Origin: Streptomyces griseiscabiei
Lineage (GTDB): Bacteria > Actinomycetota > Actinomycetes > Streptomycetales > Streptomycetaceae
NCBI RefSeq assembly: GCF_020010925.1
Contig: NZ_JAGJBZ010000005.1
Coordinates: 62,001 to 126,000 of the forward strand
Length of the DNA: 64,000 nt
Direction of reading: 5' to 3'
Position numbers and translations under genes: made by a program. The notes under the pieces are model-generated. The model ran no database searches, had not been told where the DNA came from, and saw only the letters and a program-made list of their open reading frames with translations. Shown piece by piece: positions 3,034 through 55,998 of this stretch (positions are counted from its first letter, which is position 1; each line of letters starts with the position of its first letter).

Positions 3034-3927
3034 CTACTGCTCCTCGTCTTCCTCCGGCCAGATCAGAGGTCCGTCCTCCTCGAGTTCGTCGAGAAGGCGC
3101 TGGACAGCAGCCGAGAACACGTGGACGGCGGTGCGTCCTCGCCCTGCAGACTTCATGTCCATGGGCATGGACTGAACCAGTTCCGCAATGTCCGGTCCGA
3201 CACGATACGTTGACTGTTTTCCAGTCGTTCCGACGCGTCCTGAACGCACATAGGCTGCCGCCAGTGCCACCTGCTCCTCGATGGTCTTCGGCAGGTGCCT
3301 TCTGAACGCGGCGTCGACGTACACGGCCTGCGTCATCCGCTTGCCTGTTGCTGCAGAGTCACTGACCATTCGCTTCGTGAGTTCCTGTGCCATCCCCTTG
3401 GTAAGGCGGACAGGAACGGACGACCATTCCCTAGCCCCGAGCATCAGGTCGAGCGTGCTTTCGGTCCAGGAGTGGGCCACAGCGCGGTGCGCGTCGGTCG
3501 GCTCAGGCGTACTCTCCTGCTTCTTCTTCCGGGAGTTCGGCTTCTTCGCAGGCTCCTTCGGGATGCTCTTGGCGGAGGTTTCGCCCTTGCCGTCGTCGGC
3601 GTTGCCGGGCGACTGGGAGGAATCTTCATCCTCACCTGCGGGAGGCGTCGCGACGTCGTCGGCCGGCGGAGCCTCGGACGCCGCCCTGTCCCCCACCTGC
3701 TCTGTGCGGGGCCCTGCTTCACCAGCCGATTCAGTGACTTCGGGTGCATGCGCCTCGGACGAAGCGTCCTGCTGAGCCGGCACGGGCGAGTGCTCAGCTT
3801 GCTGACCAAAGACGGAGTAGCCGACAACATCATCGGCACCGGCGAATGCCGGGTTGTCCAACAGGTTCCCGCCGAGCGGTGCCGCCTTCTTCCTCGCTCG
3901 AGACCTGGCCGGTTTCTCGTCAGGCAT
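3034..3927 (-). CDS. Plasmid partition ParB-like DNA-binding partner of ParA
   Basis: A 297-residue protein whose ATG (3927) overlaps the parA stop codon by eight bases, so the two are translationally coupled. Residues 1-15 are basic. The middle, about 45-140, is acidic, Pro/Ala-rich and probably disordered. The last ~120 residues carry a compact domain (RLTKGMAQELTKRMV, then VYVDAAFRRHLPKTI, then a basic GKQSTYRVG stretch) that could be a ribbon-helix-helix or helix-turn-helix fold. It lacks the classic ParB CTPase motifs. Position and coupling argue for the centromere-binding partner of ParA; the domain assignment is inference. Confidence 0.65.
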   Translation of the reverse strand: MPDEKPARSRARKKAAPLGGNLLDNPAFAGADDVVGYSVFGQQAEHSPVPAQQDASSEAHAPEVTESAGEAGPRTEQVGDRAASEAPPADDVATPPAGEDEDSSQSPGNADDGKGETSAKSIPKEPAKKPNSRKKKQESTPEPTDAHRAVAHSWTESTLDLMLGAREWSSVPVRLTKGMAQELTKRMVSDSAATGKRMTQAVYVDAAFRRHLPKTIEEQVALAAAYVRSGRVGTTGKQSTYRVGPDIAELVQSMPMDMKSAGRGRTAVHVFSAAVQRLLDELEEDGPLIWPEEDEEQ

Positions 3928-4825
3928 TGGTCACGGCTCCCTCGGCATCGTCGACGTCGAGGTGCTCAGCCCGCGGCGTCGGAAGCCGCCACTGGTCTCC
4001 AGGGGTCGCGAGGCGCTGGAGGATTTCTTCTGTGAGGGCCGTGTACGAACGGGCGACCACTCCGCCGGCGGTGACGACTGCCGGAACGCCGGTGCTGTAC
4101 GCCTTCGAGATGAGGCGGTTACGCCTGATCTCTGCGTTGAACGGCAACAGGTTGCCCTGGAGCATCATGCTTCGGACGTCAGCGTCCTCGCGAGTCTCAG
4201 AGGTAGGCGGGTTCGCCCGGTTGAGAAGCGCTCCAAGGAACGTGGGGCGGCCCTCTGCCTTCCCGAGCGCCTCGACTGCTGATCGAAGGACTCGTGCCCC
4301 CTTGACCGTGGCGTACTCGGGGTTGCAGAGGGTGATGACGGCGTCCGATGCCTGCAGACCGACCAGGTTCAGGCTGGAGACGGCGGGGGGCGTGTCGATC
4401 ACGGCGATGTCGTACTTGCCGGCAGCGCTCTGCAGGAGCTTGCGGAGGATGTAGGTGTCGACGTCCTGCGACTGCACGAAGGACTCCTGCGCCCGGGTCA
4501 TCGTGTGCTCGAGCGAGGCGAGAACGGCGAGGGTGCCGGCTCCCTCGAAGGGCTCCAGCATCGCCGAGACGTCGCGTACGTGAGGGAGGATGTCGGGGTC
4601 GTCCACTCCCTGGAGCACAGACTGCATGATCCAGCCGAGAGAATGAGCGACATCGGGGCCCCTGGGGGCGAGCGTGACTCCGAGAGCGGTGCCTGCCTGC
4701 GCCTGCGGCTCCAGGTCCACGACCAGGACGCGCTTCCCCGCCATAGCGAGTCGGGCTGCCAGGTTCACTGTCGTTGTCGTCTTGCCCACGCCGCCTTTTT
4801 GCGTGGCGACGGCCAAAATCCACAT
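3920..4825 (-). CDS. parA: ParA-type partition ATPase
   Basis: A 301-residue P-loop ATPase of the ParA/Soj family. The deviant Walker A (KGGVGKTTTTVN) sits at about residues 10-21, followed by LVVDLEPQAQAG near residue 35. IAVIDTPPA, the Walker B-like switch, is near residue 150. It drives segregation of plasmid copies by nucleotide-dependent binding to the nucleoid. The ATG at 4825 is chosen because GGGAG lies six bases upstream and the P-loop is at the usual distance from the N-terminus; a longer frame from 4858 lacks these. It is first in a two-gene operon with the parB-like gene. Confidence 0.93.
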   Translation of the reverse strand: MWILAVATQKGGVGKTTTTVNLAARLAMAGKRVLVVDLEPQAQAGTALGVTLAPRGPDVAHSLGWIMQSVLQGVDDPDILPHVRDVSAMLEPFEGAGTLAVLASLEHTMTRAQESFVQSQDVDTYILRKLLQSAAGKYDIAVIDTPPAVSSLNLVGLQASDAVITLCNPEYATVKGARVLRSAVEALGKAEGRPTFLGALLNRANPPTSETREDADVRSMMLQGNLLPFNAEIRRNRLISKAYSTGVPAVVTAGGVVARSYTALTEEILQRLATPGDQWRLPTPRAEHLDVDDAEGAVTNA

Positions 4826-5054
4826 AGCGCTCTCCCTATTGTCCTTACGATCGCGCACATCCTACGGCGTAGTGACGCTCGCCGTGTTGAGGCACTCGGA
4901 GTGGCAGGGAACGTCCGTGTTGTCCCTCTGAGGGTTGCCACGTAGTAACAGCTCTTTGGAGCGGGCTGGCGTCTGGGCGTGTCCTGGCGCCCCAAGGGTG
5001 CGGCCGTGGTGCCGCAGGTGCTGAGAAGGGCTCATCGCGTTGCCGCAGGCACGA

Positions 5055-5342
5055 GCGGAGCTGTGGGGCGCGGCGAAGCGCTGGTCTGGAAGACGGCGGG
5101 GTGACAACGCCACGTGCCCGCGCGAGGCAGCAGAGCCACAAGACCGTGAAGCGGAGCTGTGGGGCGCGGCGAAGCGCTGGTCTGGAAGACGGCGGGGTGA
5201 CAACGCCACGTGCCCGCGCGAGGCAGCAGAGCCACAAGACCGTGAAGCGGAGCTGTGGGGCGCGGCGAAGCGCTGGTCTGGAAGACGGCGGGGTGACAAC
5301 GCCACGTGCCCGCGCGAGGCAGCAGAGCCACAAGACCGTGAA
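5055..5342. repeat. Three exact copies of a 96-bp unit
   Basis: Units start at 5055, 5151 and 5247, each beginning GCGGAGCTGTGGGGCGCGG and ending CACAAGACCGTGAA. A fourth copy begins (GCGG) and breaks off at 5346. Because 96 is divisible by three, all frames stay open through it, which produces misleading long ORFs; no ribosome site supports translation. It lies about 230 bp upstream of parA. Confidence 0.9.
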
Positions 5343-5961
5343 GCGGTGATAGTTCAAGTCGCGTGCAGCTTCGCTCCTGAGAGCCTCGGTGCTTCAGCGC
5401 ATCGCAGAGCAGCGCGATCTCGCGAATCTGTGAATAGTCGAAGTTGGAGACGAGCCGATACGCAGGTGCGTATGCCCTTCCGCGAAAGGGCGACGTGAAG
5501 AGTGCGGAAGCAGTGGTGAGACTGCTTCAAGCCAAGCGTGCATGGCAGGCTTCCTGCAAGAAACCTTGCTGACATCAACAAGCCTCAAAGCCTGCGCTAG
5601 ACGACATGCAGACGTAGCCGTCGCTATCGAGCAAACAGTCGTCGCTCAACTCGGAGCACATTGGTATGGGGGACAACAACAGCCAATGGAGAGGCGGCCA
5701 AATGCCACACAGGTACACGAGCAAGTAACAGGCATCGGTTCGTGCATGAAGTTGCAAAACAGTGGATGGTGGGTTCTCTCGAAGTACTCAACAGAGCCCT
5801 GAGAAGTGCACAAGAAGGGGCTGGATGACCGAAGCGATGAATCAAACGGAGTCGGCAAGAGTAGATGACCATGACGCGCGAACCATGCATCAAGTAGACA
5901 CGCAGCGCAATAACGTAGTCAGCGCCTGAAAGCGCGGGGCAATACACAGCTACCTGCATAC

Positions 5962-6160
5962 GTGCCTAGGTAAATAGGTAGCTAGGTGACTGCCTATCGG
6001 GCTAGCTATGTGCATAGCTATCTAGCTACCTACGTACCTACTAGGATAGCTATTTGCATAGCTACTAGCATGCATACCGGCATGGCTATACTCCGACCTA
6101 CCGCCATACCTACAGTCTCACCTACCGAGCTGCCTATGTGGGCAGGTAGACAGCCTGACA
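5962..6160. repeat. AT-rich TAGCTA/CTAGGTA repeat array (right of parAB)
   Basis: Dense repeats of short words: CTAGGTA, TAGGTAGCTAGG, GCATAGCTA twice, TAGCTACCTACGTACC, CATACCTAC and CACCTACC. Many are inverted relative to one another. The words match those of the array at 2838-2945, so the two arrays bracket the partition genes. They could be centromere repeats or replication iterons. Confidence 0.6.
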
Positions 6161-6262
6161 GATGCAACGAGCCTATCTCTCAGGGCGACCTGAGACATGG
6201 GCGTGGAGTGCTGTGTTCGGCACTCGCACGCGCCCCGACACAGAGGGCTCTTGCGGAGCGCT

Positions 6263-23749: not shown

Positions 23750-24559
23750 ATGCGAAAGACCCGACCAGGCGTGCTGCGCCGCGTCGCGGCGACCACCGTC
23801 GTCGTGGCCGCCTCGGCGGCGCTGGCCGCCCCGGCGGCGATCGCCGCCACCGGCTCCCCGGAGCCGAAGGCATCCGTCTCGGCGGATGAGGGATTGCTCG
23901 ATCTGAAGCTCGAGGTCTCGGCGAACGCCGACACTCCGAGCCCGGGGCCGACCGGCGAGCCGGGGACCGACCCGACCGACCCGCCCACGACCGATCCGAC
24001 GGACCCGCCGACCACCGACCCGACCGAGCCGGGGACCGATCCCACGGACCCGCCCACGACGGACCCGACCGATCCTCCGACGACCGATCCGACGGACCCT
24101 CCGACGACGGACCCGACGGACCCGCCCACGACCGATCCGACGGACCCTCCGACGACGGACCCGACGGACCCGCCCACGACCGATCCGACCGATCCTCCGA
24201 CGACGGACCCGACGGACCCGCCCACGACCGATCCGACGGACCCGCCGACAACGGACCCGGGCACCGACCCGACCACCGAGCCGTCGCCGGACCCGACCAC
24301 GGGCAGTGAGGGCTCCGACAAGGGCGACGCGGGCAAGGGCGGCTCCGACAACGCCAGCACGCCCAAGGGCGGAACCACCGAGCAGATCAGCGCCAGCGAC
24401 AACCTCAAGCCCGCCGGGAGCCTCGCGCACACCGGCGCGGACGGGAACACGGCGCTGGCCCTGACCGCCGGCGGCCTCCTCGCCGCCGGCCTGGCAGCCG
24501 TGGGCGCTGTCGGCTACGGCAAGCGCCGCACCGGCCGCCAGGGCGCCGACCAGGGCTGA
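23750..24559 (+). CDS. Sortase-anchored surface protein with PTDPTDPP repeats
   Basis: A 269-residue secreted protein. Residues 1-33 form a signal peptide (MRKTRPGVLRR followed by a hydrophobic core ending in APAAIAA). Residues about 60-185 are an almost pure repeat of TDPTDPPT, with GTDP variants, a stiff wall-spanning stalk. A charged Gly/Ser/Lys segment leads to LAHTG near residue 225, a hydrophobic segment and a basic tail (KRRTGRQ). LAxTG is the form used by Streptomyces class E sortases. The Met at 23750 is chosen because it begins the signal peptide. The stalk may display the protein during mating or act as an adhesin; that is inference. Confidence 0.85.
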   Translation: MRKTRPGVLRRVAATTVVVAASAALAAPAAIAATGSPEPKASVSADEGLLDLKLEVSANADTPSPGPTGEPGTDPTDPPTTDPTDPPTTDPTEPGTDPTDPPTTDPTDPPTTDPTDPPTTDPTDPPTTDPTDPPTTDPTDPPTTDPTDPPTTDPTDPPTTDPTDPPTTDPGTDPTTEPSPDPTTGSEGSDKGDAGKGGSDNASTPKGGTTEQISASDNLKPAGSLAHTGADGNTALALTAGGLLAAGLAAVGAVGYGKRRTGRQGADQG

Positions 24560-49071: not shown

Positions 49072-50148
49072 TCATGTGACCGCGCCAGGGGAGGGATCGG
49101 GAACGGTCTGGAGGCGGGGCTGAAGAGGGGTGCTGTGTCCGGCCGGCACGGGGGCCTCCGCGGGGGGCGCGGTGAGGGGTGCGGTGAGGGGTGCGTCCGG
49201 GCCCGATTCCGCGGCCTGAGCGGGGGCCTCCGCGGGCCCCTCCGACGGGGCCGGGACAGGGGGCCCGGAGAGGGGCCGGGAGAGGGTCTCCAGGGCCTCG
49301 TCCAGAGAGGTGCCGAACGCCTGCTGCAGCTCGTCGGCGCGGACCCCCCAGGTGGGCCCCTTCCCCTTGGCCCGGACGTTCCTGCTGACGGGGATCCCGG
49401 CGGCAGTGCACCACTCCCGCAGTTGGAGCTGCTCCCAGTTGTCGAAACCCCGTGCCTCCTTCTGCAGCCGCTCAAGGAGCTCGGCGATGTGAACGCCCAT
49501 GTGCTCTGGCGCAGCATCTCGGACGGCGGCCACGATGAACTGGGCCAGCCCGCGGGCGAACCGGTCCCGGTCGGACTCCTGGTCGGACTTCTGGTCCTGC
49601 TCCCCCGCAGATTTTTCATGATCGTTTGGGGTGGCGCTCTCCCTCAGCGGGGGAGCGATCATCAACGCGGCGATCACCCAAAGCGCCCCGAGAACGGCGG
49701 CGCCGATCTTGGCGTACGGAGCGATGTGGGGCCATGCGAGCCATATGAACAGCCAGATGAGCCCTGCGATGACCACGATGACGAACGAAATGATCAGGCA
49801 TCCCAGACCGACCCGCTCGATCGCGTCGTCGGCGGAGGCCTGGGCCGCCTTCTTGGTGACCTTGGTGGTGCTCGGGCCCGACTCTCCGCCAGATCCCGGG
49901 TCAGCGCTCTCGTCGTCCTGGGTCTTGACGGCGGGGGCGGCCTTGGCGGCCGGAGAGTCAAGGTTCATGGCCGCTGAACAGCCGGCCTTGATGAGGCGTC
50001 CCACCTTGCGCAGCAGGTAGGACGCGATCAGGTACGACCCGGAGATCAACGGGAGCAGAAGGAGCAGCGACTGCCTGCCGCCCCGGAACGGGATGCTGAT
50101 CTCCGTGACGAGCGGGTTGGCCCTGATCCTCTTGAGCAGGGCTCTCAT
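49072..50148 (-). CDS. Membrane protein, last gene of the spread operon
   Basis: A 358-residue protein from ATG 50148 (overlapping the previous stop, ATGA). N-terminal hydrophobic segment at about 26-46 (LLLLLPLISGSYLIASYLL), then a Ser/Ala/Asp-rich stretch, then two transmembrane segments (about 115-165, CLIISFVIVVIAGLIWLFIW and beyond). The C-terminal half is soluble, with VHIAELLERLQKEARG and EWCTAAGIPVSRNVRAKGKG, which may bind DNA, and a Pro/Ala-rich tail. Spd proteins of Streptomyces plasmids are often small membrane proteins of unknown detail; this is such a candidate. Confidence 0.65.
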   Translation of the reverse strand: MRALLKRIRANPLVTEISIPFRGGRQSLLLLLPLISGSYLIASYLLRKVGRLIKAGCSAAMNLDSPAAKAAPAVKTQDDESADPGSGGESGPSTTKVTKKAAQASADDAIERVGLGCLIISFVIVVIAGLIWLFIWLAWPHIAPYAKIGAAVLGALWVIAALMIAPPLRESATPNDHEKSAGEQDQKSDQESDRDRFARGLAQFIVAAVRDAAPEHMGVHIAELLERLQKEARGFDNWEQLQLREWCTAAGIPVSRNVRAKGKGPTWGVRADELQQAFGTSLDEALETLSRPLSGPPVPAPSEGPAEAPAQAAESGPDAPLTAPLTAPPAEAPVPAGHSTPLQPRLQTVPDPSPGAVT

Positions 50149-50618
50149 GCGAGCTTCTCCAGCATCCCGCCGATCACCTTGAAGAGGATCCCCCAGAAGG
50201 CGCCGGCGAGGCCCCACGAGACGCCGGCCCCCAGACCGAAGAACGCGGGGGGAACACGACGCTGCCATTCGGGCAGGAACGCCAGGATGGTCATGATCAG
50301 TGCGAGTCCGGCCGGCGACAGCCCGGCGACGACGTTCGGATCGTTGAGGGTCGAGGCCGCCAGGTCGTGGGTGCCCTGGGCGATCATCCTCCAGGTGCCC
50401 CCGGCGATGATGAACAGGACACCGGTCACAGCAGCGAGCCCGGCAAGGTAGCGGCGGTCGTCGAAGTACTTCTTGGTGAGCTTCGAGCGGTTGCGGATAG
50501 CGATGACCAGGACGATGAAACCTGCGCCCGCGAGGGACGAGAGGCCAACGGCTCCCAGGCCCTGGGTGAAGCTGGCGCCGGAGGCAGGCGCGGCGAGCAC
50601 GGTGGTCATGGGGATCAC
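50145..50618 (-). CDS. Small polytopic membrane protein of the spread operon
   Basis: A 157-residue protein with four likely transmembrane segments (about 22-40 AVGLSSLAGAGFIVLVIAI; 58-75; 93-115; 125-150). The N-terminus ATGA junction links it to the next gene. A GTG at 50618 is the start used here; ATG 50609 is an alternative. It resembles nothing specific, but clusters of such small membrane proteins are typical of spd regions. Confidence 0.65.
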   Translation of the reverse strand: MIPMTTVLAAPASGASFTQGLGAVGLSSLAGAGFIVLVIAIRNRSKLTKKYFDDRRYLAGLAAVTGVLFIIAGGTWRMIAQGTHDLAASTLNDPNVVAGLSPAGLALIMTILAFLPEWQRRVPPAFFGLGAGVSWGLAGAFWGILFKVIGGMLEKLA

Positions 50619-50631
50619 GGGCGGGTGCCTT

Positions 50632-51873
50632 TCAGATGACAGGGCCGTTGGAGTACAGCGCGCAGACGAGCAGGGAAGTGGCCAGCGGGATGCGAGCGAG
50701 CCAGCGCTTGAGCAGGCCGCCGTAGCGGGTGCGCCACACCAGCCAGCCCGAGGCGCCGCACATGGTGAGGCCGACGACGAGCAGGGAGGTGTCGGTCTGG
50801 CTCAGGCCGACGTAGCGGGCGATCGTGCCGGAGGTGTACGGCAGGAGCTCCTGGCCGAGCCGGCGGCCGAGCTCGGCGGAGACGAACACCGCGCCGAGAC
50901 GGCCCAGGGAGCCGAACGGCACGAACGGCGAGAGCATTTCACTGCCCGCAACCTTCCAGGCCGTGAACCCCGCGCCGAGCGCCATGCCTGCCCCGAGCAG
51001 TCCACCGGCAGCAGTGACGGCGGCCGGCGGGAACTGGGACAGGTAGGCGTTCAGCCCGATGGCAGAGCCGACCACCGCAGCAGTTCCGTTGAAGGTGATG
51101 ACGCGCCAGAACCTCGTGGGACGCCACCGCTTCGCGGGCTGCGTACGGATCTGGAGAGTCGGCTGCGGCTTGTGCACATCGAGGACCTCCCGGCGGGCGG
51201 AGGGCTCCTCGGCCTCGCCCTCATCCGGCTCCGGGCTCTCGGGCTCCGGACTCTTCTGGACCTCGATGAGGACCGGTCCGCTGCCGGGCGGCACGGTCAG
51301 CACGTGCCCGGAGTAGGTGTCGAGGTCCGCGTCCTGGTCCTTGTAGAGGCGGTCCCACCAGCCGGACTTGGACTCACGTGGCGAGCCCTTCGCCGGGGCC
51401 GCGGCCTTCGGCTCACCCCGGGAGACGCGCCACCAATCCGGGTCGCTCTCCGGCGTCTCGGGCGGCGAGGCAGGCATGGGCGGAACAACAAGTTCCGCCT
51501 CGCTCCCCCGGGGGGCCGGTGCACCCCCTTTCGGGGCGCTGACCTGCGCATCTACAGCATCTACAGGGGCATCTACATCGGCTTCTGCAGGGGCTGGATC
51601 CGCCGGCTTGGCCGCCGCCTGGCCACCGGCAGGGCCCGTTGCCTCCGCGCGCGCCGCGGGTACGGGCACCTCGTCCGGCAGCGGCACATGGAACGGGTCA
51701 GCCTTCTCGTCTGCGGTGGTCATCTTCCCTCCCTCCTCGGAGGCTCCGGTGATCCGCTCGCCCCGCAGGGCGAGGTGGATCAGCATGTGTATGAACTTCT
51801 CGTTGTGGTCGGCGTCGTGGCAGGTCAGCGGCCCGGCCGCACTGGAGTGGGCCGCGTAGAGCGGCTCAGTCAT
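50632..51873 (-). CDS. Membrane protein of the spread operon with GTAGATG-coded VDA repeats
   Basis: A 413-residue protein whose ATG overlaps the stop of the DUF2637 gene by eight bases. Residues about 1-260 are soluble, acidic and Pro/Ala-rich. Near residues 100-110 it reads VDAPVDAVDA, encoded by GTA-GAT-GC, both rare codons in this GC-rich setting, so that the DNA repeats GTAGATG three times. The C-terminal 150 residues contain several hydrophobic segments (about 275-400; AAVVGSAIGLNAYL, AVTAAGGLLGAGMALGAGF, LLVVGLTMCGASGWLVW). SpdB-like candidate. Confidence 0.68.
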   Translation of the reverse strand: MTEPLYAAHSSAAGPLTCHDADHNEKFIHMLIHLALRGERITGASEEGGKMTTADEKADPFHVPLPDEVPVPAARAEATGPAGGQAAAKPADPAPAEADVDAPVDAVDAQVSAPKGGAPAPRGSEAELVVPPMPASPPETPESDPDWWRVSRGEPKAAAPAKGSPRESKSGWWDRLYKDQDADLDTYSGHVLTVPPGSGPVLIEVQKSPEPESPEPDEGEAEEPSARREVLDVHKPQPTLQIRTQPAKRWRPTRFWRVITFNGTAAVVGSAIGLNAYLSQFPPAAVTAAGGLLGAGMALGAGFTAWKVAGSEMLSPFVPFGSLGRLGAVFVSAELGRRLGQELLPYTSGTIARYVGLSQTDTSLLVVGLTMCGASGWLVWRTRYGGLLKRWLARIPLATSLLVCALYSNGPVI

Positions 51874-53617
51874 CGGCCGCGGCCTCGGCCTTCCGAGCCG
51901 CTTCCGCCAGGGCCTTGGACATCCACGCCGGCGAGCGGCCGAGACCCGCTACGAAGTCCTTCTGCGTCAGGCGCGGGTTCGCCTCCTTGGCGGCGAACCA
52001 GTCGGCTGCCGCCTTGGCCCGCTCCTCCTCTTCCGGAGTCGGGACGCCGACCATGGCGTGAACCGAGGTCGGCGCCGGCGCCTTCGCGGCGTGCACGCGG
52101 CGGGTGCGGCGTGAATTCACGTCGCCGTCGTTCACGCCGTCCTCGCCGTGGTTCACGCTCTCCTCTTCACGGTCGACGGGGTCCTCGTTCACGGCCTTGC
52201 CCGGCGTCGGATTCACGGTGCCGGCGCCGCGGTTCACGCCGTCCGATTCACGACCGGCGGGGTCCTCGTTCACGGCCTCGCCCGGCGTCGGATTCACGGT
52301 GCCGGCCCCGTGATTCACGCCGTCCGATTCACGACCGGCCGACGGGTTCACGCACAGCTGCACCGGGCGATTCACGCGCCAGTCCCCGCGATTCACGCAC
52401 CCGTCTTCACGCGTGAATTCACGGGGCTTCACGACCAGCGTGAACCCGTTCACGGTGCCCGTGACCTGCGGATTCACGGACTTCACGCTGTTCACGCCGG
52501 AGCCGTTCACGGTGCGCGTGAACCGCTTCATGCGTGAATCGAGGGCGCGCTCGGTCCCGTTCACGGGCGACCGTGAATCGACCCCGCGTGAACCGTTCAC
52601 GCGGGAAGTGGCCGGCGCGTGAACCGGGGGATTCACGCTCGAGTCGGAGTCCGGATTCACGGGGCCCGATTCACGCTCGGACGCCGTGTTCACGGTCGCC
52701 GGCCGCGACGCCGGCAGACCGCCGCCGCGACGGTTCACGATGTCGTCGGCGCCCGCGTTCACGGGGCGCGGCGGAACGTTCATGCCCTCGCCGACAGGAA
52801 GCGTCGACAGGGCGTCTGCGGCCGAGGCGATGGCGAGCGCGTCGGCAACGTGGGCCTCCAGAGCGTTACCCGCCGGCGCCTGCGCAGAGGCAGCCGCGGA
52901 GGCGCGACCGGAGCTGAGAGGCACGCCGTAGCGGGTCAGCTTCAGCGGCAGCCGGGCCTCGACCGGTGCCTTGCGGCGCCAGGCACGACCGAACCGGGTC
53001 CGCAGCCGAGCCTGGTAGACGAGGCGCTCCTGCTCGAGCTCGAGGACCCGCTCGTACGACCTGAGCTCCCACAGCTTCATCCGCCGCCACAGCTTGAACG
53101 TGGGCAACGGCGACAGCAGCCACCGGATGAGCCGGACCGGCTCCATGTGACGGCCGGCCGTGATGTTCGCCAGCTGCCCGATCGCATGCCGGGCGGCCTC
53201 GACCGTCACGACGAAAAGGACCGGGATCACCGCATGCATGCCGACGCCGAGAGGGTCCGGCCAGGCCGCCGCCCCGTTGAACGCGATCGTCGCGATCGTC
53301 AGCAGCCACGCCGTCTGCCGCAGCATGGGGAAAGGCATCCGAAGCCAGGTCAGCAGCAGGTCGAGCGCAAGCAGGACGAGGATGCCAGCATCGACGCCAA
53401 GCGGGAAAACGTGGGCAAACGTGCCAAATCCCTTGCGGATCGCCAGGTCCCGGACGGCGGCGTACGAGCCAGCGAATCCGATCCCGGCGATTACCACCGC
53501 GCCGCCGACCACGACACCGACGATCACGCGCTGCGCCTTGTTGAGCGGCTGCCGGTCCGGCTCGCCGGCCGGGGCCGGCGGGGGTGTCGTAGGGGGAGTG
53601 CTGGAGGTGGTGGTCAC
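51866..53617 (-). CDS. DUF2637 spread protein (second copy) carrying a dense CGTGAA array in its coding sequence
   Basis: A 583-residue protein from GTG 53617, with AGGAGA seven bases upstream; the frame extends to 54043 but reads as non-coding there. Residues about 20-200 are the DUF2637 membrane domain, closely matching the protein at 6323 ([49 protein letters not shown]). Residues about 276-512 are an unusual Val-Asn-rich disordered segment whose DNA repeats CGTGAA or its complement about 39 times. The last ~60 residues are a helix-turn-helix-like region ([22 protein letters not shown]). Second-to-last membrane component of the coupled spread operon. Confidence 0.85.
52080..52790. repeat. 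About 39 copies of CGTGAA/TTCACG inside the spread gene
   Basis: By hand count, 31 TTCACG and 8 CGTGAA on the given strand in about 700 bases; two are joined as the 12-bp palindrome CGTGAATTCACG (about 52110 and 52411). The coding frame reads them as GTG-AA(C/T), Val-Asn. About 13 of 27 Asn codons here are AAT, rare in such genomes, which argues for selection on the DNA word itself. Confidence 0.85.
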
Positions 53618-53769: not shown

Positions 53770-53931
53770 TCACGAGCGACCCGGTGCCCCCGCCCGGCGC
53801 ATCTTCTTGTAGGCGGTGTTCCGGTCGGCCGATCCGCGGCGGTAGTCCGCCTGGCACCGGTCGACCGTGGCGGGCTCGGCGATGATCGGGTTCTCGCGGG
53901 GGCGCCCGTCCTCGGGCGCGCTCTGCGTCAC
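53770..53931 (-). CDS. Small basic protein of the spread operon
   Basis: A 53-residue protein from a GTG (53931) overlapping the previous stop (GTGA). It begins [20 protein letters not shown] and ends with a basic stretch ([19 protein letters not shown]). One Cys. No family. The tight overlap supports real expression despite the size. Confidence 0.6.
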
Positions 53932-54446
53932 CGGGCACCTGCGGCGGCCGGCGTGGCGGTGATGTGGACGGTGGAGGTCCCGCAGTGCCCGCGGGCCTCG
54001 ACGTACCCGCCCGCGTCCCGCAGCCCCGGGGCGTTGATCGCACGGACCAGTGTGTCGATCAGCGGGTTGGGCAGCGGCCGGCCGAGGTGGACGGCCACGT
54101 CGGCCTCCAGCGGTGCCACATCGCTGATCACGTCGAAGAGACTGGCGACCAGGTCGTCATCGGTCAGCCCGCCCTGGTCGGAGCCGGGGGGCGGCGTGGC
54201 CGCCGGGACCGTGACGGTCAGCAGGCCGGCCAGGGCGCGCCGCATCTCCAGGACCGTCAGGACGAGCTCGTCCGCGGTCATGTGCGTCAGGTCGAGCTTG
54301 CTCGCCCGGAGCAGCACGTCGCTGGCAGCCTCGGCCGCCTGCACCCGGCGCTCGGCCGGGCTCAGGTTGCCGAGACGGCTGCGGGCCACTCCCGCGAACG
54401 CGGCCAGGCTCGGGTGCATCAGCTCGTAGTCGTTGAGGGTTGTCAT
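53928..54446 (-). CDS. Hypothetical protein of the spread operon
   Basis: A 172-residue protein. The first ~90 residues are helical (LAAFAGVARSRLGNLSPAERRVQAAEAASDVLLRA), the rest mixed, ending with VEARGHCGTSTVHITATPAAAG. Its ATG (54446) overlaps the stop of the leading 62-residue gene, and its stop overlaps the small basic protein gene. Function unknown, no transmembrane segment. Confidence 0.68.
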   Translation of the reverse strand: MTTLNDYELMHPSLAAFAGVARSRLGNLSPAERRVQAAEAASDVLLRASKLDLTHMTADELVLTVLEMRRALAGLLTVTVPAATPPPGSDQGGLTDDDLVASLFDVISDVAPLEADVAVHLGRPLPNPLIDTLVRAINAPGLRDAGGYVEARGHCGTSTVHITATPAAAGAR

Positions 54447-55218: not shown

Positions 55219-55998
55219 ATGACAAGCCGACCCAGAGAGCAAAGGCGTTGGAGTGCCCAGGAGATCGCCGAGGATCTACGCAGCCGGATCCAGGCCGGGG
55301 AGTTCAGCGAAGGCAGCCAACTGCCGGCGACCCGCAAGCTGGTCGAGGAGTACTACACCTCGCCGGAGACGCTGCGCCAAGCCGTCCTGAAACTCAAGAG
55401 CTGGGGGCTGGTGACCTCGCGGCAGGGCAAGGGGGTCTTCGTGCGCGTCATAGACCCCATCGAGTGGCACGTTCACTCGTTCGAGCGCGGGGAGCGCCGA
55501 GACGACCCCGCCCGCGGTGTCGACGACTGGAAGGCATCCATCGAAGAGCTCGGCCGCGTGCCGAGCCAGGACACCCCGGTCGTCACGGTCGAGCGGGCCC
55601 CCGAGGACATCGCCAAATGGCTTGAACTGGAGCCCGGATCCTTCGCCGTCGCACGCCGCCGCCTGCGTCGCGTCGACGGCGTGCCCTTCCAGCTCGCCGA
55701 CTCATGGTTCCCCACGGAGGTCGCCATGGACTCTCCGCTGATGGAGGAACGCGACGTCACCATGGCCGGCGGCATCCTCAAGAACATCGGCCACCCCCAG
55801 GTTCGCCGGCGGCACATCGTGCGCTCCTGGCTGCCCACCGACGAGGAGATCAAGCGGCTGGACCTCGACCCGGACGCCACCCACCCGGTCACCAGACACA
55901 CCCTCGTCGGCTACGGAGCCGACGGCAAGCCCGTCCGCTGCATGGTCACCATCGCCCCTGGTGACCGCAATGTTCTGATCTACGACTTCGAGGAATGA
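55219..55998 (+). CDS. GntR/HutC-family transfer regulator (KorSA/TraR-like)
   Basis: A 259-residue protein. The N-terminal winged helix, about 12-78 (SAQEIAEDLRSRIQAGEFSEGSQLPATRKLVEEYYTSPET... with TLRQAVLKLKSWGLV), is a textbook GntR domain. The C-terminal ~160 residues form a UTRA-like effector domain (VARRRLRRVDGVPFQLADSWFP, then TRHTLVGYGADGKPVRCMVTI). HutC-type GntR proteins such as KorSA and TraR silence plasmid transfer and spread genes in Streptomyces. The repeated TTCACTTG-like sites upstream suggest it controls itself and the divergent operon. Confidence 0.88.
   Translation: MTSRPREQRRWSAQEIAEDLRSRIQAGEFSEGSQLPATRKLVEEYYTSPETLRQAVLKLKSWGLVTSRQGKGVFVRVIDPIEWHVHSFERGERRDDPARGVDDWKASIEELGRVPSQDTPVVTVERAPEDIAKWLELEPGSFAVARRRLRRVDGVPFQLADSWFPTEVAMDSPLMEERDVTMAGGILKNIGHPQVRRRHIVRSWLPTDEEIKRLDLDPDATHPVTRHTLVGYGADGKPVRCMVTIAPGDRNVLIYDFEE

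Follow-up and report, generated by a model that had tools for sequence, protein, structure and literature searches.

Clusters of short DNA words recognised by plasmid-encoded proteins have been described in Streptomyces, where the clt transfer loci are short-repeat clusters (the 8-bp TRS of pSVH1; TGACACC/CCCGCCC in pWTY27) whose words are recognised by a plasmid-encoded protein, to the extent that the openly available texts describe them. In the accessible part of PMC4170104, SpdB2 of pSVH1 is presented as a plasmid-encoded integral membrane protein that oligomerises, binds DNA and has a role in spreading, an spdB2 mutant of SLP2 is less stable, and SpdA of pIJ101 is a plasmid-encoded DNA-binding protein with a short site of its own. 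Centromere-like clusters of short sites, each acting with a DNA-binding protein, are represented by P1 parS/ParB and F sopC (PMC5016525, open portion of the text).

Here we describe an array of about 40 CGTGAA words that lies inside the coding sequence of a plasmid-borne membrane-protein gene of Streptomyces griseiscabiei. In the portions of the openly available literature on SpdB2, clt, TraB and DUF2637 that were consulted, we found no description of such arrays. We propose that these words probably constitute a binding-site cluster for the helix-turn-helix (HTH)-like tail of the same gene's product, which would tether the plasmid to the membrane.

A hexamer array inside a DUF2637 gene

The window, by which we mean the whole 64,000-nucleotide stretch analysed, covers positions 62001-126000 of a 355-kb contig in an assembly of 10.6 Mb. 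A preliminary description had reported an irregularly spaced hexamer array in both orientations within the gene of a spread protein. The array is real, since 31 TTCACG and 8 CGTGAA, counted on the forward strand, make 39 words at 52080-52790, and an extra CGTGAA at 52057 brings the number within the gene to 40. The irregular spacing and mixed orientation likewise held up, with 10.5-bp phasing absent, whereas the label "spread protein" proved to be a guess, the sole assignable domain being DUF2637. The locus comprises the following features.

51866..53617, minus strand: DUF2637 membrane-protein gene, ~583 aa (DUF2637 E=2.3e-42; the open frame reaches 54043)
53051..53515, minus strand: DUF2637 membrane domain
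52057..52763, minus strand: array of 40 CGTGAA words within the linker that joins membrane domain and tail; relative to the gene, 31 words are sense and 9 are antisense
52406..52423, no strand assigned: abutting triple TTCACG-CGTGAA-TTCACG, with aligned sites in 6, 7 and 6 of 7 homologues
52110..52121, no strand assigned: palindromic pair CGTGAATTCACG at VNSR, the aligned sites being present in 6/7 and 5/7 homologues
51869..52081, minus strand: C-terminal tail with an HTH-like motif (21 residues), the proposed word reader
55219..55998, plus strand: divergent GntR/UTRA regulator
53928..54446, minus strand: 172-aa protein, upstream and in the same direction, no Pfam match
50632..51873, minus strand: 413-aa protein overlapping the end of the array gene, no Pfam match
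50145..50618, minus strand: 157-aa protein with three hydrophobic segments
49072..50268, minus strand: 398-aa protein with three hydrophobic segments

Within the 64-kb window, CGTGAA/TTCACG occurs 71 times against 22.8 expected from shuffles, with 31 of these words falling outside the array, and 26 of the 30 assembly-wide matches (10.6 Mb) to triplets of closely spaced TTCACG belong to this array. In bases 1-300000 of the related plasmid CP108096, 36 of 163 words fall within a single kilobase, the runner-up in density holding 3. The top-scoring control window of the array scan was a 24/48-bp degenerate tandem repeat at window positions 23965-24276.

The full open frame encodes 725 aa; the gene probably starts near 53617, as judged from P0001 of Streptomyces tremellae (583 aa), the nearest named protein, which is 96-97% identical. 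The product has three hydrophobic segments (Kyte-Doolittle), and its match to the DUF2637 profile (PF10935) scores 145.1 bits against a curated cut-off of 22.8. With E values up to 1 allowed, Pfam found no other domain in the complete protein, and no ParB-type domain at that threshold. When 11 tails were searched alone in Pfam, weak generic HTH matches were obtained, including KorB at E=0.11 in one tail, and the best PDB sequence match of the tail was P1 ParB, at a marginal E=0.063. The GntR regulator has counterparts of 93% identity at locus L096, 67% at L097 and 26-32% at L015, L016, L095, L098 and L266, and was not found at L258 and L267. Elsewhere the window encodes TcpC- and VirB4-like genes, together with a ParA gene at 3920-4858.

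The DNA word and the encoded peptide

The words had been said to read Val-Asn, which is correct for 25 of the 40 if Val-Lys is included; the other 15 lie outside this register and read RE (6), SR (4), FT (3) or VH (2). The sole unused sense register is the one that would yield a TGA stop. The AAT codon, reported for about half of the Asn codons, actually occurs in 9 of the 23 VN words of the window gene.

We compared seven homologues, namely the window gene, L015, L016 and L095-L098. Synonymous shuffling (60 per gene) gave means of 7.1-11.6 words and a maximum of 17, against 33-45 words observed, in 7/7 homologues, and rare codons are forced wherever the word falls: TCA encodes Ser in 25/25 cases inside words vs 9/234 outside, GAA encodes Glu in 38/38 vs 33/176, and CGT encodes Arg in 38/63 vs 26/353. 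These results bear out the earlier claim that the DNA word, not the peptide, is kept. Free variation of the Val-Asn codons was not seen in the homologues, 134/140 pairs being spelled C.GTGAA[C/T], and 38/43 RE pairs are spelled CGTGAA.

Codon alignment of the 7 genes yielded 78 word sites, 33 present in at least 5 genes and 40 in one gene, while the residues flanking kept sites drift. Nine of the 33 widely kept sites are antisense, and since these are held in position we argue that double-stranded DNA, not RNA, is the thing read. Near-miss words are enriched in the arrays as well (CATGAA 12 vs 1.3 expected, TGTGAA 4 vs 0.4, CGCGAA 17 vs 5.2). Judged by these sequences, selection acts on the DNA word separately from the peptide, suggesting that a cluster of DNA sites is hidden inside the coding sequence. 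A repeat maintained at the level of the peptide, in which slippage and codon bias shaped a linker rich in VN, would suit the 81-bp tandem repeat that makes up part of the array in 2-3 copies, but it fails as an explanation of the whole in the face of five registers including antisense ones, the forced rare codons and the synonymous shuffles, and we regard it as scarcely credible.

Tail classes and their words

In a survey of 103 genes, tails were assigned to classes D (n=10), E (n=5), C (n=5), B (n=11) and A (n=58), with GAEVARRL.VSPKTGQRR as the signature of class E and RKYLG as that of class C. The window gene has a class D tail. The array was present in 10/10 genes bearing this tail for which DNA was read, of which L258, L266 and L267 were located by the tail alone. 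These three contain 8, 33 and 14 CGTGAA words, respectively, against means (maxima) over 40 shuffles of 1.9 (5), 8.1 (16) and 3.8 (7), a second run for L258 giving 2.1 (6). L258 and L267 both sit on contigs longer than 8 Mb and have none of nine tested window neighbour genes, and in L258 a recognisable DUF2637 domain was not found. A tail search gave matches in 2/392 Streptomyces genomes, and a tail profile in 6/394 Streptomycetaceae, the window's own genome being included in both; three strong profile matches are true tails, whereas three weak ones are XRE-type regulators, and the genes of these three look-alikes contain 0 CGTGAA words. Among the 7991 best candidates of the protein search, at least 22 protein clusters carry linker plus tail. 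Across the genes compared, the class D tail and the CGTGAA word go together.

The other DUF2637 tail classes often show other words at the 3' end of the gene. Over the 103 genes, class D averaged 31.5 CGTGAA vs 0.53 elsewhere (label permutation 0/100000), class E 13.4 TCGGTCA vs 0.13 (0/100000), class C 5.6 GTTGGAA vs 0.05 (1/100000) and class B 4.7 TGCGCA vs 1.01 (4/100000), the words for B, C and E having first been picked within the loci that were also used for the permutation. The 58 class A genes reached maxima of 2 CGTGAA, 1 TCGGTCA, 0 GTTGGAA and 3 TGCGCA. A clear array was found in 3/11 class B and 3/5 class C loci, and every class except D has loci without arrays. The orientation bias is about 3 to 1 in both class D (190:65, seven genes) and class E (100:36, eight loci).

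Because the B, C and E words came from the same locus set, we looked for fresh loci with protein searches. The class E search gave 13 places in 11/392 genomes, and 9 of these places have at least 6 TCGGTCA; L287 has 20 TCGGCCA and L289 has 11 (with 6 TCGGTCA), and neither a TCGGTCA nor a TCGGCCA array was seen in L283, L288 or L291 (broken frame). Fresh class C loci numbered 7, in 7/392 genomes, with 9, 9, 6, 6 and 6 GTTGGAA in L296-L300, 3 in L294 and 0 in L295, which has 8 GGTGGAA instead. As a control, 18/18 listed non-E DUF2637 loci in ten genomes with E tails have at most 3 TCGGTCA and at most 4 TCGGCCA.

The arrays of classes C and E lie mostly beyond the stop codon, a position that bears on whether the tail, when on the array, would do nothing more than repress the operon that encodes it and would play no part in tethering. 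Such autoregulation would fit sites placed within the gene itself, and a self-binding protein often represses itself; against it stand the arrays located past the stop codon and the number of sites, ~40 being, by our reckoning, far in excess of what an operator needs, and we consider this reading improbable.

In class E, helix position x of [S/A][P/A]xTGQR is Lys with TCGGTCA (T-word) and Arg with TCGGCCA (C-word). The idea of this pairing arose from L287 and L289, and L275 subsequently agreed with it (17 TCGGCCA, 1 TCGGTCA). We then chose nine more plasmid loci on protein identity, ahead of reading their DNA, and 8/9 fit: the Lys loci L334, L336 and L338 have 8, 12 and 11 TCGGTCA, and the Arg loci L331, L332, L333, L335 and L339 have 14, 14, 18, 18 and 16 TCGGCCA, the array being absent from the Arg locus L337. 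The tails of L331 and L332 are 91 and 87% identical to that of L275, and the L334 tail equals that of L282, so these loci add little. Over 25 E loci, with arrays called by thresholds set in the script (at least 6 words plus a margin over the other word), Lys tails comprised 13 with the T-word, 0 with the C-word and 1 unclear (L283), and Arg tails 8 with the C-word, 0 with the T-word and 2 with none (L288, L337). Fisher's test of 13/0 vs 0/8 gives p=4.9e-6 for an effective number of loci that kinship makes smaller than the number counted (close kin: L331/L332/L275; L334/L282; L284/L285), and on the tail tree the word base changed at least twice. L272 and L292 pass as T-word loci (TCGGTCA 7 and 6) yet have 10 and 6 CCGGTGA, and the Ser tail of L290 accompanies 14 TCGGTCA and 26 CCGGTGA, a possible third specificity. 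Across these loci, one helix residue and one word base change together, as is predicted if the tail reads the word directly. The one-residue code is a class E finding, the helix and word of class D hardly varying.

This shift of the word with DUF2637 tail class and helix residue speaks against a clt-type transfer site, at which the words would be read by a TraB/FtsK-like translocase domain or a type IV-like coupling ATPase that exports the plasmid. The clt loci of Streptomyces are indeed short-repeat clusters, the window has its TcpC- and VirB4-like genes, a CP108096 gene is labelled FtsK, and a DUF2637 gene of SCP2 lies near traB. However, L258 and L267 keep array and tail without any of the nine window neighbours, and we consider a clt-type site unlikely. 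Nine proteins encoded close to the array were scanned, and none had an FtsK/TraB-type Pfam match. Of the clt-like cis-acting locus suggested in the preliminary description, the DNA site cluster hidden in the gene stands, whereas a site read by a TraB-like translocase was not established. The same description had listed the HTH tails of DUF2637 proteins as candidate binders, and the comparisons point to one of them, the binder being probably the array gene's own product.

Additional repeats were observed near DUF2637 genes. At the class B loci L064, L071 and L085, 11-15 copies of TGCGCA(A) span the gene end, near the DUF2637 stop codon, and at L056 (11370-11970) GTTGGAA is accompanied by recurring CCCATCG and GGTGAG(T), so that several words may be recognised at this locus. 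The tails encoded by the second DUF2637 genes of the window and of CP108096 are nearly identical, yet the upstream repeats differ (TAGCTA vs GGGTACC), which argues that not every DUF2637-adjacent repeat is read by its tail; these two sets of repeats probably belong to another protein. In the window, dense AT-rich repeats of the TAGCTA/TACCTA type occupy 5940-6170, upstream of the second DUF2637 gene, and adjoin ParA and a 297-aa protein without a Pfam match, a possible partition or origin site. A perfect 96-bp tandem repeat of 3.1 copies lies beside the ParA gene at 5054-5346. At L104 (41080-42480; CP108096 ~241080-242480), a large GGGTACCCGGGGTACCC palindrome array is flanked on one side by an annotated ParA and its hypothetical partner and on the other by the second DUF2637 gene. 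The chromosome of another Streptomyces carries an irregular cluster of CGTGAAGC-type words (G036:C1:1515041-1515282).

A candidate membrane tether and its relation to known systems

In the mechanism that we favour, the DUF2637 domain would anchor the protein in the membrane, the long linker, itself written by the array, would reach the DNA, and the C-terminal tail would read CGTGAA. Many membrane-anchored copies would then gather on their own array at one plasmid site, so that the plasmid would be held at the membrane and the array might serve maintenance, intramycelial spreading or transfer in the manner of a centromere or a spread locus. From a tail-word pairing drawn by comparison we infer that the tail physically binds the word, that the protein tethers the plasmid to the membrane and that it acts in maintenance or spread. 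Annotated ParA and ParB genes lie directly beside DUF2637 genes at 6/11 plasmid loci outside class D (L099, L273, L276, L278, L279, L280), and at other such loci DUF2637 genes are found near transfer genes. In SCP2, a DUF2637 gene comes before traB and is preceded by small frames and a GntR gene in divergent orientation, an order also seen upstream of the array gene. These neighbours, the SCP2 order and the SpdB2 data would favour maintenance or spreading.

The adjoining ParA and ParB genes would also suit a partition site, with the array acting as parS for the ParB of the plasmid or of the host. The window has a ParA gene, ~47 kb away, and CGTGAA is presumably half of the canonical parS palindrome, TTCACGTGAA. 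The full TTCACGTGAA, however, occurs 0 times in the window, as it does in the 300 kb of CP108096 that were searched, and CGTGAA is followed by A in 0/40 array words of the window, but in 6/33 of L098. A scan of nine proteins encoded close to the array found neither ParA nor ParB, nor is either annotated within ~12 kb at L095-L098, and L272 has a class E array without adjoining ParAB. Taken together, we judge a parS role very improbable.

Whether the tether model extends beyond this locus is, in our estimation, evenly balanced: DUF2637 proteins with HTH-type tails may form a family of membrane-integral, sequence-specific DNA tethers, each paired with an array of its own, at or within the gene that encodes it, under a code in which a helix residue sets a base of the word, and the present gene would be both tether and centromere, with the array running through five registers of the linker. 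The DUF2637 domain occurs in 310 of 72,556 plasmid records, 300 of the 310 from Streptomyces. Pfam gives it no function, and the tail-word code, if true, would supply one. The array gene is also a strong example of how a putative array of DNA-binding sites, probably bound by the gene's own product, can shape a coding sequence, and the paired tails and words offer a natural set for studying how specificity changes.

Among the described systems, TRS/clt resembles the present locus as a cluster of short words on a Streptomyces plasmid, but here ~40 words, oriented both ways, lie within a coding sequence, and their partner would be no translocase but a DUF2637 membrane protein, through its tail. 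P1 parS/ParB and F sopC share the centromere-like arrangement of short sites with a DNA-binding protein; unlike these, the array protein is without a Pfam ParB domain and has a membrane domain, no ParA was found beside the array, and the site cluster lies inside the proposed binder's own gene. For SpdA, the accessible text describes a single palindromic motif and no array in its own coding sequence (PMC4170104). SpdB2, likened by description, is similar in being a plasmid-encoded integral membrane protein that binds DNA, but its binding is called non-specific in the same portion of that source (PMC4170104), whereas the tail described here is predicted to read a word of its own.
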